Source: Candidatus Saccharimonadota bacterium (GTDB lineage: Bacteria; Patescibacteriota; Saccharimonadia; Saccharimonadales; Saccharimonadaceae). From it: a stretch of 44,371 nt of DNA. The notes beneath the pieces are model-generated. The model searched no databases. It worked only from the letters and a program-made list of their open reading frames with translations, and was not told the origin of the DNA. Where the stretch lies: the NCBI GenBank assembly GCA_017645955.1, contig JAGCNM010000056.1:1-44371 (forward strand). The letters are read 5' to 3'. Shown here one piece after another: positions 1,769 through 25,645 of the stretch. Numbering within the stretch: the stretch's first letter is position 1; the number at the start of each line of letters is the position of its first letter. A program made the position numbers and the translations under genes.

Positions 1769-3478
1769 ATGAATAAGGTTATGCCTAAATATTCTTATGT
1801 GGCGAGTTGTGTTTTGTTTTCTGTTACTGCTTTTTCTGGCTTAGTTTTATCTTCTAGTATTGTCTCTGCCGATGACTCGGTAGTAGACGTTATTAATATT
1901 ACAGTCCCAGCTGCTTGTACTTTGGAAGGCATCGGTATGAACTCCCATAATGCAACCATTAACCCGGGTACTTATAATTCAGAAGTAGGAACTACCACAC
2001 TAAAAGCCTTCTGTAATGATAGTAATGGTTTTGCTATATATGCTATTGGATACACTAATAATACAGACGGTAATAATAATCTAGTTTCTACTACTCTAAC
2101 TTCTCCAGTTAATATTCCTACTGGAACTTCTACTTCAGGTAATTCACAATGGGCAATGAAGTTAGCTACTCAGACTAGTCCAGAACCAGCTTATCCTATT
2201 ACTATCCAAAACAGCTTTGATTCCTTCCATACAGTACCAGACGACTATACATTAGTCGCTAAACGTATTGCCGCTACTGATGTGGGTACTGGAGCTACCG
2301 GTTCTATCCTTACTACTACCTACCAAGTCTTCATTTCTAATACTCAACCTGCGGATACTTATACTGGGAAGGTTAAATATGTGATGGTACATCCGAACAC
2401 TCATTCAGCTCCAGTAGCTTGTAATCCTAATGCTACCACTATCTCGGAAGTAAAGTGTATGCAAGATTTCGGCAATGTAGATAGCACTAATAGAGCCGCC
2501 ATCCTTGCCTCCATGACAGCTGGACAACAATACACCATGCAAGACAAACGTGATGGTAAAACCTACACTATCGCTAAACTCGCGGATGGTAATGTCTGGA
2601 TGACGCAGAACCTAGACCTAGACCTCGTCGCGGGCGTGACTTATACAAACGAAGACACCGATATTGGCTATAACGCTACGACCGGCGAATATGAAACTGC
2701 CGCTTGGAGTCCAATGCGCTCTACCTATGCGACTAGTAACTCACAAACTACGACTTGGTGCCAGGGCGGAACTTGGGATCAAAACGGTTATTGCGGACGC
2801 AACGACACTCCCGAGTCCTACGATCCAGGTGACCTTTACTGGAACTCTACTTTAAGTGACTACGATGATTGGAATGCATATTATCAAACTTGCGACTATA
2901 GTACTTCCACTCCAAGTTGTTCAGGTACTAACCCGATCGGAACTTATACATCTAGTACTGGTACTGCCGAGCTTCATTTAGGTAACTACTATAACTGGAC
3001 CGCAGCTGTGGCTATGAACGATAGTAGTAGTCACACTACACAAAACGAACTCATAGAACAATCCATTTGCCCAGCTGGTTGGACTTTACCTAGAATTGGC
3101 GAAGGTGACGATACCTTCTATGCTTTATGGAACTCATACAATATGGGTAACAATGCAAACGGGAGCTTTATTGATGCTAATAATAACGATTCTTACGATA
3201 ATGGCGAAACGGCGCTTTGGACTCAACCACTCTACTTCCCCGCTAGTGGGGGCTTCGATGGCGTGCTGTACGATGTCGGGAGCTTCGGCGTCTTCTGGTC
3301 GCCAGTCGTCGACTTTGAGATCTTTGTTAGGAGCGCGTACTTCTATGTCGATGGTGGCGCCGGTCCGTCGGGCGCCGGCAATCGCGGCGACGGTAGCTCT
3401 ATCCGTTGCGTAGCTCGCCCAGTTTCCTCCTCTATCTCAGGGGGCGGTGGTGGTTCGGAGGAGCCTGGCTATAACTAG
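1769..3478 (+). CDS. Secreted FISUMP-domain surface protein, copy 1
   Basis: Secreted protein of 569 residues with an N-terminal hydrophobic signal segment (about 10-34, ending near VSADD), an N-terminal region of about 200 residues rich in Thr/Asn and probably beta-sandwich, and a C-terminal FISUMP domain (Fibrobacter succinogenes major paralogous domain, a C-type-lectin/FGE-like fold). The FISUMP domain begins at DGKTYTIAKLADGNVWMT, includes CPAGWTLPR and ends at SIRCVARPV. The C-terminus is a Gly-rich tail without LPXTG. Base use changes sharply near the end: 3241-3405 is GC-rich and poor in A. The function is unknown; surface binding is inferred from the fold. The paralog is at 23999. The promoter has a G9 tract and the mRNA should be almost leaderless. 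Confidence 0.85.
   Translation: MNKVMPKYSYVASCVLFSVTAFSGLVLSSSIVSADDSVVDVINITVPAACTLEGIGMNSHNATINPGTYNSEVGTTTLKAFCNDSNGFAIYAIGYTNNTDGNNNLVSTTLTSPVNIPTGTSTSGNSQWAMKLATQTSPEPAYPITIQNSFDSFHTVPDDYTLVAKRIAATDVGTGATGSILTTTYQVFISNTQPADTYTGKVKYVMVHPNTHSAPVACNPNATTISEVKCMQDFGNVDSTNRAAILASMTAGQQYTMQDKRDGKTYTIAKLADGNVWMTQNLDLDLVAGVTYTNEDTDIGYNATTGEYETAAWSPMRSTYATSNSQTTTWCQGGTWDQNGYCGRNDTPESYDPGDLYWNSTLSDYDDWNAYYQTCDYSTSTPSCSGTNPIGTYTSSTGTAELHLGNYYNWTAAVAMNDSSSHTTQNELIEQSICPAGWTLPRIGEGDDTFYALWNSYNMGNNANGSFIDANNNDSYDNGETALWTQPLYFPASGGFDGVLYDVGSFGVFWSPVVDFEIFVRSAYFYVDGGAGPSGAGNRGDGSSIRCVARPVSSSISGGGGGSEEPGYN
3241..3425 (+). other. Adenine-depleted putative variable region with conserved 3' segment
   Basis: By eye only about 19 of the 165 bases in 3241-3405 are A, in an otherwise AT-rich gene, and many codons end in C with varied first two bases. 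The following 28 nt (3398-3425) match the paralog (25595-25622) at 27 of 28 positions. This is the composition and layout expected of a diversity-generating retroelement variable region followed by its homing signal, but no reverse transcriptase or template repeat is in the window. Confidence 0.5.
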
Positions 3479-23812: not shown

Positions 23813-23858
23813 AGTAGATAACGCTATAATGGTATTTTCTAAAGCGAAACTATAAAAT

Positions 23859-23955
23859 AATACCATTTCGGGACATTACGGAGCCTGGCAAGGCGAGTAT
23901 TAACGCCGGCCGCCCGTGGCGACGGGCCGGCCGGACGCGTGTCCCGAATGGTATT
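23859..23955 (+). repeat. Structured palindromic element B after rpoC
   Basis: Outer arms AATACCATTTCGGGAC (23859-23874) and GTCCCGAATGGTATT (23941-23955), followed by a T tract. The core 23870-23945 contains a GC stem CCGGCCG/CGGCCGG, a single bulged G, CCCGT/ACGGG and a four-base loop (read on the minus strand). It is homologous to element C (27886-27959) in inverted orientation. Another AATGGTATT copy lies at 23829. It probably also terminates rpoBC. Confidence 0.8.
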
Positions 23956-23961
23956 TTTTTA

Positions 23962-23998: not shown

Positions 23999-25645
23999 AT
24001 GAGTGGAGGCAAGGGAATCATCCGACTTTCTTTGTTATCAGGTTTTTTGTTCGGATTTACTGTCGTTTCGGGCTTTATTTTGACTTCCTCTTCAGTTTCG
24101 GCCGATGATGCGGTGGTTGATAACGTTAGTATTACGGTGCAAATTTCTTGTTCGATGATAGGTTCTGGAATGGGCTCTCATAATGCGACAGTTAATCCAG
24201 GCACGTATGAAACAAACATAGGTCTAACTACTATGAATGTTTTCTGTAATGATAATGAGGGCTTTGCGGTTTATGCAATTGGTTATACTGATGATATAGA
24301 CGGAAAGAATGTTCTAACTAGCGTTTCGCTTGGGAGTAGTTTTGATATTGTAACAGGAACTGGGACTAGCGGTACGTCGCAATGGGCAATGAAACTTGCT
24401 ACTGATTCTAACGCTATTTATGCGGTTGATTTGCAGAACGGTTTCAATAATTGGCATACCGTACCAGATGAATATACTTTAGTAGCCAAAAGGCTGTCTA
24501 ATACCGATTTAGGTTCGGGAGCTACTGGTGCAAGTATTACTTCAGCTTACCAAGTTTTTATAGCATCTGATCAAATAGCGGGGAGTTACAATGGGCAAGT
24601 AAAATATGTATTAGTGCATCCGCATAATGCTTCTGCTCCGACAGCTTGTAATCCGAGTGCTACTACTATAGCTGAAGTTGTATGTATGCAGGATTTTGCC
24701 AATGTGAGTAGCGCCAATCGTACGGCTATTATTAATTCTATGACTCTCGAACAACAATACACATTAAAAGATATTCGGGATGATAAAATGTATACGGTAG
24801 CGAAATTGGCGGATGGTAATGTTTGGATGACTAAGAATTTGGATTTAGATATAGATAGTGGTACAACGTATACCAATGAAGATACTGATTTAGGTTATAA
24901 TACTACGACAGGCGAATATGGTACTGCTTCGTGGACTCCAATGCGTTCGACTTATACAACTACATCTAATCATAATCAGACATGGTTTAGTGGCGGTTCA
25001 TATGCTCAGTCTATGAATGATACCCCAGAGTCTTATGATCCGGGTGAACTATATTGGAACGGCACACCGAGTAGTTATAGTGAGTATTATGATTATTCGA
25101 GCAGTTGTGATTATACTACTGCGGTTCCGGTTTGCGATGAGTCGCTAAATGTGACTGAAGATTACGTTTCTTCTACGAGTCTAACTCCTCAGTATCATTT
25201 AGGAAACTTTTATAACTGGGCGGCGGCTCTTGCTACTAATGATAGCTCCGTGTATGTTGATGGTGGGATAGTAGAACAGTCTATTTGCCCGGCGGGTTGG
25301 ACTTTGCCGAGAACTGGTACCGGAGACGATTCGTTCTATAATCTTTGGAACCAATACGGTTTAGCTCAAATTTCTGTAAATGGAAATGTTACATTATGGG
25401 GCGCGCCAATTTATTTGACTCCAGCTGGTTCTTTTGTTGGTGCTTTAGCCGGCGTTGGGTTTTCTGGTGGATATTCCACTGGTGTTTCTTATGATACTTC
25501 ACATCCCTGGTACGATCATTTTGCTTGGTCTGCTGGCTATATGATAAATAGCAGTAGTTGGCCCGCAGATGATAGTTATAGGTATAATGGAGCTTCTATC
25601 CGCTGCGTAGCTCGCCCAGTTTCTACAACTATAACAGGAGTTTAG
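23999..25645 (+). CDS. Secreted FISUMP-domain surface protein, copy 2
   Basis: Paralog of the 1769 protein, 548 residues. Signal segment about 8-34 (LLSGFLFGFTVVSGFILTSS, ending near VSADD). The N-terminal domain aligns well with copy 1 (GMGSHNATVNPGTY, FCNDNEGFAVYAIGYT, SQWAMKLAT, NWHTVPDEYTLVAKR). The FISUMP domain has KLADGNVWMTKNLDLD, CPAGWTLPRTG and SIRCVARPV near the end. There is no LPXTG, and only a short Thr-rich tail. Codon choice differs from copy 1 (more G/T), so this is not a recent duplication, yet the 28 nt coding SIRCVARPV are almost identical. It lies alone between rpoC and secY. Confidence 0.85.
   Translation: MSGGKGIIRLSLLSGFLFGFTVVSGFILTSSSVSADDAVVDNVSITVQISCSMIGSGMGSHNATVNPGTYETNIGLTTMNVFCNDNEGFAVYAIGYTDDIDGKNVLTSVSLGSSFDIVTGTGTSGTSQWAMKLATDSNAIYAVDLQNGFNNWHTVPDEYTLVAKRLSNTDLGSGATGASITSAYQVFIASDQIAGSYNGQVKYVLVHPHNASAPTACNPSATTIAEVVCMQDFANVSSANRTAIINSMTLEQQYTLKDIRDDKMYTVAKLADGNVWMTKNLDLDIDSGTTYTNEDTDLGYNTTTGEYGTASWTPMRSTYTTTSNHNQTWFSGGSYAQSMNDTPESYDPGELYWNGTPSSYSEYYDYSSSCDYTTAVPVCDESLNVTEDYVSSTSLTPQYHLGNFYNWAAALATNDSSVYVDGGIVEQSICPAGWTLPRTGTGDDSFYNLWNQYGLAQISVNGNVTLWGAPIYLTPAGSFVGALAGVGFSGGYSTGVSYDTSHPWYDHFAWSAGYMINSSSWPADDSYRYNGASIRCVARPVSTTITGV

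Follow-up and report, generated by a model that had tools for sequence, protein, structure and literature searches.

Adenine-depleted variable regions of probable diversity-generating retroelement targets in a Saccharimonadota draft genome without a matching reverse transcriptase gene

Abstract

The 3′ end of a gene in a Candidatus Saccharimonadota genome is very probably the variable region (VR) of a diversity-generating retroelement (DGR) target, rewritten together with two other genes of the same genome from one adenine-rich template. In three unlinked genes the variation is tied to adenines while the non-A positions are homogenised, and complete cassettes of this type occur within the genus. 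The DGR type itself is already known; the interesting part is the presence of targets without the enzyme.

Background

In DGRs, reverse transcription of a template RNA introduces errors at adenines, and the resulting cDNA replaces the VR (PMC8144416). These elements are known and common in CPR bacteria (PMC8144416, PMC10221324). Here, we investigated an adenine-poor block at the end of a FISUMP gene, its copies in the same genome and the corresponding loci of related genomes.

Materials and methods

The studied genome (G000) is a draft of 912,374 bases in 60 contigs with a completeness of 99.76%, and the window is its whole contig C15 with a length of 44,371 nucleotides. The relatives in the collection belong to the same genus and are ‘Candidatus Saccharibacteria’ bacteria, several of them from goat or sheep gut. 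The three VRs compared as fresh were the copy in the window (C15a) and two copies on contig C55 (C55a and C55b), while a copy on contig C20 was set apart as older. Rows of C15b, whose frame is shifted by one base, were left out of the upstream codon comparison. One relative, G057, was excluded from the template/VR pairs because both its sequences are template-like.

Results

The target gene encodes a protein of 569 aa, whose N terminus is hydrophobic and signal-like and whose C-terminal part contains a FISUMP domain. The model TIGR02145 (Fib_succ_major) matched residues 404–548 with 44.4 bits, above the cut-off of 41.65, and a Pfam search of the protein gave 0 matches. In a check for a C-type-lectin-like fold of the variable domain, the AlphaFold model of the C-terminal 348 residues, based on an alignment of six rows, had a mean pLDDT of 32, too low for use. 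Solved structures related to the target were not found by sequence search, nor were relatives of it found in the phage records searched. The features of the window are as follows.

1769..3478, + strand: target gene, open reading frame with a 569-aa product
3233..3418, + strand: VR, homologous to the relatives’ template (186-base ungapped alignment with the in-genome copies and the G017 template)
3251..3397, + strand: hypervariable, A-depleted part of the VR (copy differences at codon positions 1/2/3 = 20/22/6; A minimum of the contig)
3398..3423, + strand: constant 3′ tail TCTATCCGTTGCGTAGCTCGCCCAGT, common to C15a, C55a and C55b, candidate IMH-like end of the VR
23999..25645, + strand: FISUMP paralog (copy 2), with only the 3′ tail in common with the VR gene

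In the target gene the VR occupies the 3′ end, where DGR targets carry theirs. The initial annotation had put about 19 A among the 165 bases at 3241–3405, which is exact (A 19, C 43, G 60, T 43), and had described mostly NNC, NNT and NNG codons with varied first two bases, which are found as stated. Windows of 165 bases with at most 19 A amount to 95 of the 44,206 in the contig; they start at 3210–3352, every one overlaps the 3′ end of the target, and the count in 3241–3405 is the minimum of the contig. The A-poor block originally drawn at 3241–3425 stands, with better limits, 3233–3418 for the repeat, 3251–3397 for its hypervariable part and 3398–3423 for the tail. With a GC content of up to ~0.62, the block might be taken for a GC-rich domain acquired horizontally or for an effect of codon bias. 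However, A alone is missing: T is normal in the block and no 165-base window across the contig is depleted in T to the same level, which indicates a loss of A beyond mere high GC. The flanking gene and the constant codons are, moreover, common to the copies, and we give this explanation hardly any credence.

A DNA search with the block returned further copies at C55:28065-28285, C55:41975-42188 and C20:3001-3241, each ending a similar gene. The segments C55:28070-28255, C55:41997-42182 and C20:3034-3218 align with 3233–3418, all four in frame and ungapped. Weak DNA matches on contig C50 and elsewhere were at chance level and were dropped as VR copies, and a search of genomic and viral contig collections with the exact degenerate VR pattern gave 0 matches. 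Along the constant tail, C15a, C55a and C55b are identical up to CGCCCAGT; 3398–3423 is a candidate homing end (IMH-like).

In the alignment of C15a, C55a and C55b, 48 out of 162 columns are variable, and codon positions 1, 2 and 3 account for 20, 22 and 6 of them, respectively. The remaining 114 columns are invariant, with only 6 A beside 41 G, 37 C and 30 T. If A is written into the variable columns, mostly AAC and AAT codons result, and a template rich in these codons would have the look that is usual for DGR templates. As this template is known by inference only, drift may account for five of the columns that vary at position 3.

In the same three genes, the codon-position pattern is reversed immediately before the VR. 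Over 108 upstream codons, C15a and C55b differ 22, 15 and 46 times at positions 1, 2 and 3, whereas in the 52 codons of the VR the respective numbers are 13, 18 and 4, i.e. 31 for positions 1 and 2 together. The contrast at position 3 (4/52 versus 46/108) is significant (Fisher 3e-6) and identifies the non-A positions of C15a and C55b as homogenised, as in targets of one template. High position-3 drift upstream and low drift inside argue that the VRs were overwritten from a single source long after the genes had diverged. The VR on C20 differs from the other three at position 3 in 17–19 codons and hence was not recently rewritten. It belongs to the first gene of a tandem pair of FISUMP-type genes (C20 1513-6133, on a 6.3-kb contig), in which it appears as an older A-poor VR.

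Copy 2 matches the tail at 25595-25623 (97%), with one mismatch in 25595-25617, has 31 A among the 159 bases of its gene end and bears no sign of recent rewriting from the VR template. In a further FISUMP gene, on contig C56, the block is too diverged for assignment. Just upstream of copy 2, at 23855-23960, there is a long GC-rich hairpin (MFE −62.5 kcal/mol, z −6.95) without a match in Rfam. The hairpin has partial copies on C40 (90%) and C42, while those on C35 and C32 are weaker; it looks like a member of a dispersed repeat family.

In the genus, an RVT_1 match was present in 98 of 174 genomes. Searching with the inferred template detected A-rich copies adjoining RT (reverse transcriptase) genes, for example in G017, G042, G073 and G026. 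In nine template/VR pairs located beside DGR-type RTs, 258 of 520 template adenines were changed against 23 of 1450 other bases, and 20 of these 23 non-A mismatches fell beyond the repeat, in flanking bases included in two of the alignments. The initial annotation had named mismatches only opposite template A as supporting evidence; this holds almost throughout the repeat of the nine pairs, while the genome’s own template is absent from the assembly. We therefore used the relatives’ templates as stand-ins in a proxy test on the columns of C15a, C55a and C55b. The G017 template has an A in 38 of the 48 variable columns, compared to 7 of the 129 invariant non-A columns (Fisher 2.5e-22), and the templates of G034 and L081 gave the same result.

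Paralog gene conversion combined with diversifying selection, without any retroelement, could be invoked because the genes are paralogous and their N-terminal halves are alike in parts. It would have homogenised positions 1 and 2 too, and it gives no reason to expect A-poor invariant columns or a match of variable columns to template adenines of other species; we consider it very improbable. The reading of the block as a DGR target, proposed from the letters of the window, is instead supported by the codon-position pattern in three copies with its reversal upstream, by the coincidence of variable columns with a relative’s template adenines and by intact target-Avd-RT-template cassettes in relatives.

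One such cassette, L081, has a target that likewise measures 569 aa, followed by the Avd-like gene, the RT and the template. The relatives’ RT has a YVDDF motif and matches PHROG 1423 ‘Reverse transcriptase’. The gene upstream of it resembles Avd weakly; for the G034 piece the match had E 0.0008, well below the curated cut-off. The Avd-like genes at L078:412-1278, L079:3112-3993, L080:810-1697 and L081:3077-3997 have products of ~290–306 aa, in which an Avd-like C-terminal third is preceded by an N-terminal extension of ~190 aa; for this extension, Pfam and NCBIfam yielded no convincing match. At the same four loci the template lies downstream of the RT gene and, read in the VR sense, is antisense to that gene. 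A contig labelled uncultured Clostridia bacterium (L088) has a template, a VR-like block and an RT that shares 54% identity with the one from Saccharibacteria; mis-binning or transfer may account for this.

The initial annotation was right that no RT lies in the window, but its expectation of a template and an RT elsewhere in the genome was not borne out, as neither is in the assembly. An RT profile search of the 60-contig draft had no match at E up to 10, and a second run again had none, with four relatives at E 1e-242 to 1e-225 as a working control. The Avd profile did not match in the draft while 41 other genomes of the genus matched, and in place of an A-rich template copy only the four A-poor VRs were found. 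Among viral contigs searched for the RT, two distant relatives appeared (30–37% identity) and no virus with this core. The lack of both template and RT in a complete genome had been named as a refutation of the DGR reading. Both are lacking here, but from a draft in 60 contigs, so that this applies only by half, and the positive evidence outweighs it.

The dnaK locus is informative about the fate of the core. In G034 the order is dnaK, template, RT, Avd and target, whereas in the studied genome dnaK is followed after 180 bases by the target (C55b) on one unbroken contig. In G012, the closest relative by the dnaK 3′ end (85%), dnaK is followed by a FISUMP gene whose A content is 28%, and the genome lacks an RT. 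In G017 the core adjoins groES/groEL. The dnaK-locus contrast would thus fit a core that was lost here, added in G034 or located elsewhere. As dnaK abuts the target here and the core is interposed in G034, the core should be either unassembled or very recently lost. The contigs of both G034 and G017 terminate inside the target adjoining the core, which suggests that assembly breaks at these repeats are common.

A-poor VR-like blocks occur also in six other genomes of the genus in which a sensitive profile detected no RT (G006, G024, G093, G097, G128 and G137). Completeness is at least 95% in G006, G024, G093 and G097. The VRs differ at position 3 in 10–22 of 67 codons in G093 and in 34 of 67 in G097, compared to 4 of 52 per pair for the three fresh VRs. 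This drift suggests an older inactivity in G093 and G097 and is absent from the three fresh VRs.

Discussion

The variable regions of the targets in this genome look freshly rewritten. In the mechanism that we propose, an RT would copy an A-rich template RNA with errors at adenines, and the cDNA would replace the 3′ end of the gene at 1769–3478 and of the two C55 genes. The three proteins would then have a constant scaffold in common and differ at surface codons that read AAC or AAT in the template. The footprint at the VR points to the cDNA-copying step, and the template probably acted in trans from one locus. Display of the proteins and binding of a ligand, be it a host cell, a phage or a substrate, may be the outcome.

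The VRs might also be fossils, i.e. inherited relics that are no longer rewritten after the strain lost its core. The absence of RT, Avd and template at such high completeness is in favour of this, as are the unbroken 180 bases between dnaK and the target where G034 has its core, the RT-less arrangement beside dnaK in G012 and the existence of drifted A-poor VRs in RT-less G093 and G097. Against it, the three VRs are almost free of position-3 drift, so that any loss must have been very recent, and the core may sit elsewhere, as it does in G017. We regard the fossil explanation as a serious possibility that falls somewhat short of even chances, and we judge a very recent loss of the core in the same way. 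That the core exists in the organism or in part of its population and is missing from the assembly appears slightly the better bet. A more far-reaching and rather doubtful model has DGR targets at fixed sites, with the core as a cassette that comes and goes or is present in part of the population, and with orphan targets that become rewritable when it returns.

Saccharibacteria live attached to other bacteria and have genomes below 1 Mb. With such a host-attached life and so small a genome, they could plausibly vary the recognition of hosts or phages through several secreted or surface proteins that are diversified from a single template. Complete cassettes, fresh targets without core and drifted targets without core form a natural series for studying gain, loss and trans activity of DGRs. 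If the core is merely missing from assemblies, surveys of draft genomes underestimate the number of DGRs.

Among the closest known systems are the cassettes L078–L084 of Saccharibacteria from goat and sheep gut (e.g. RGIG2553, RGIG2349 and RGIG5750), which have the same target family and VR position and a template 67–81% identical to the one inferred here. Their RT, Avd-like gene and template adjoin the target, whereas none of these is in our assembly. With DGRs of Patescibacteria/CPR in general, the likeness lies in the cellular host group, the A-specific VR/template mismatches and the small genome. RT clade 2 is confined to Patescibacteria/CPR and its targets are usually without recognisable domains (Roux et al. 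2021, PMC8144416); in contrast, our target has a FISUMP domain above the cut-off. We found no paper joining ‘FISUMP’ with DGRs in a search mostly outside the subscription literature, and we do not claim a first report. Several VRs served by one template and inverted cassette orders have both been documented (PMC6642488).

For Thiohalocapsa PB-PSB1, DGRs that act in trans on distant targets have been described along with incomplete loci, and one locus is intact in part of the population only (PMC10907252). Our case resembles it in targets remote from an RT and in VRs that fit one template at all non-A sites, but phylum, RT clade and targets are different, and the proof there came from reads and a complete genome. 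With the DGR of Bordetella phage BPP-1 (Mtd/brt/avd), the expected mechanism is the same, mutagenic retrohoming into the 3′ end of the target. Unlike in BPP-1, the relatives’ template is antisense to the RT gene and their Avd-like protein has a long N-terminal extension.
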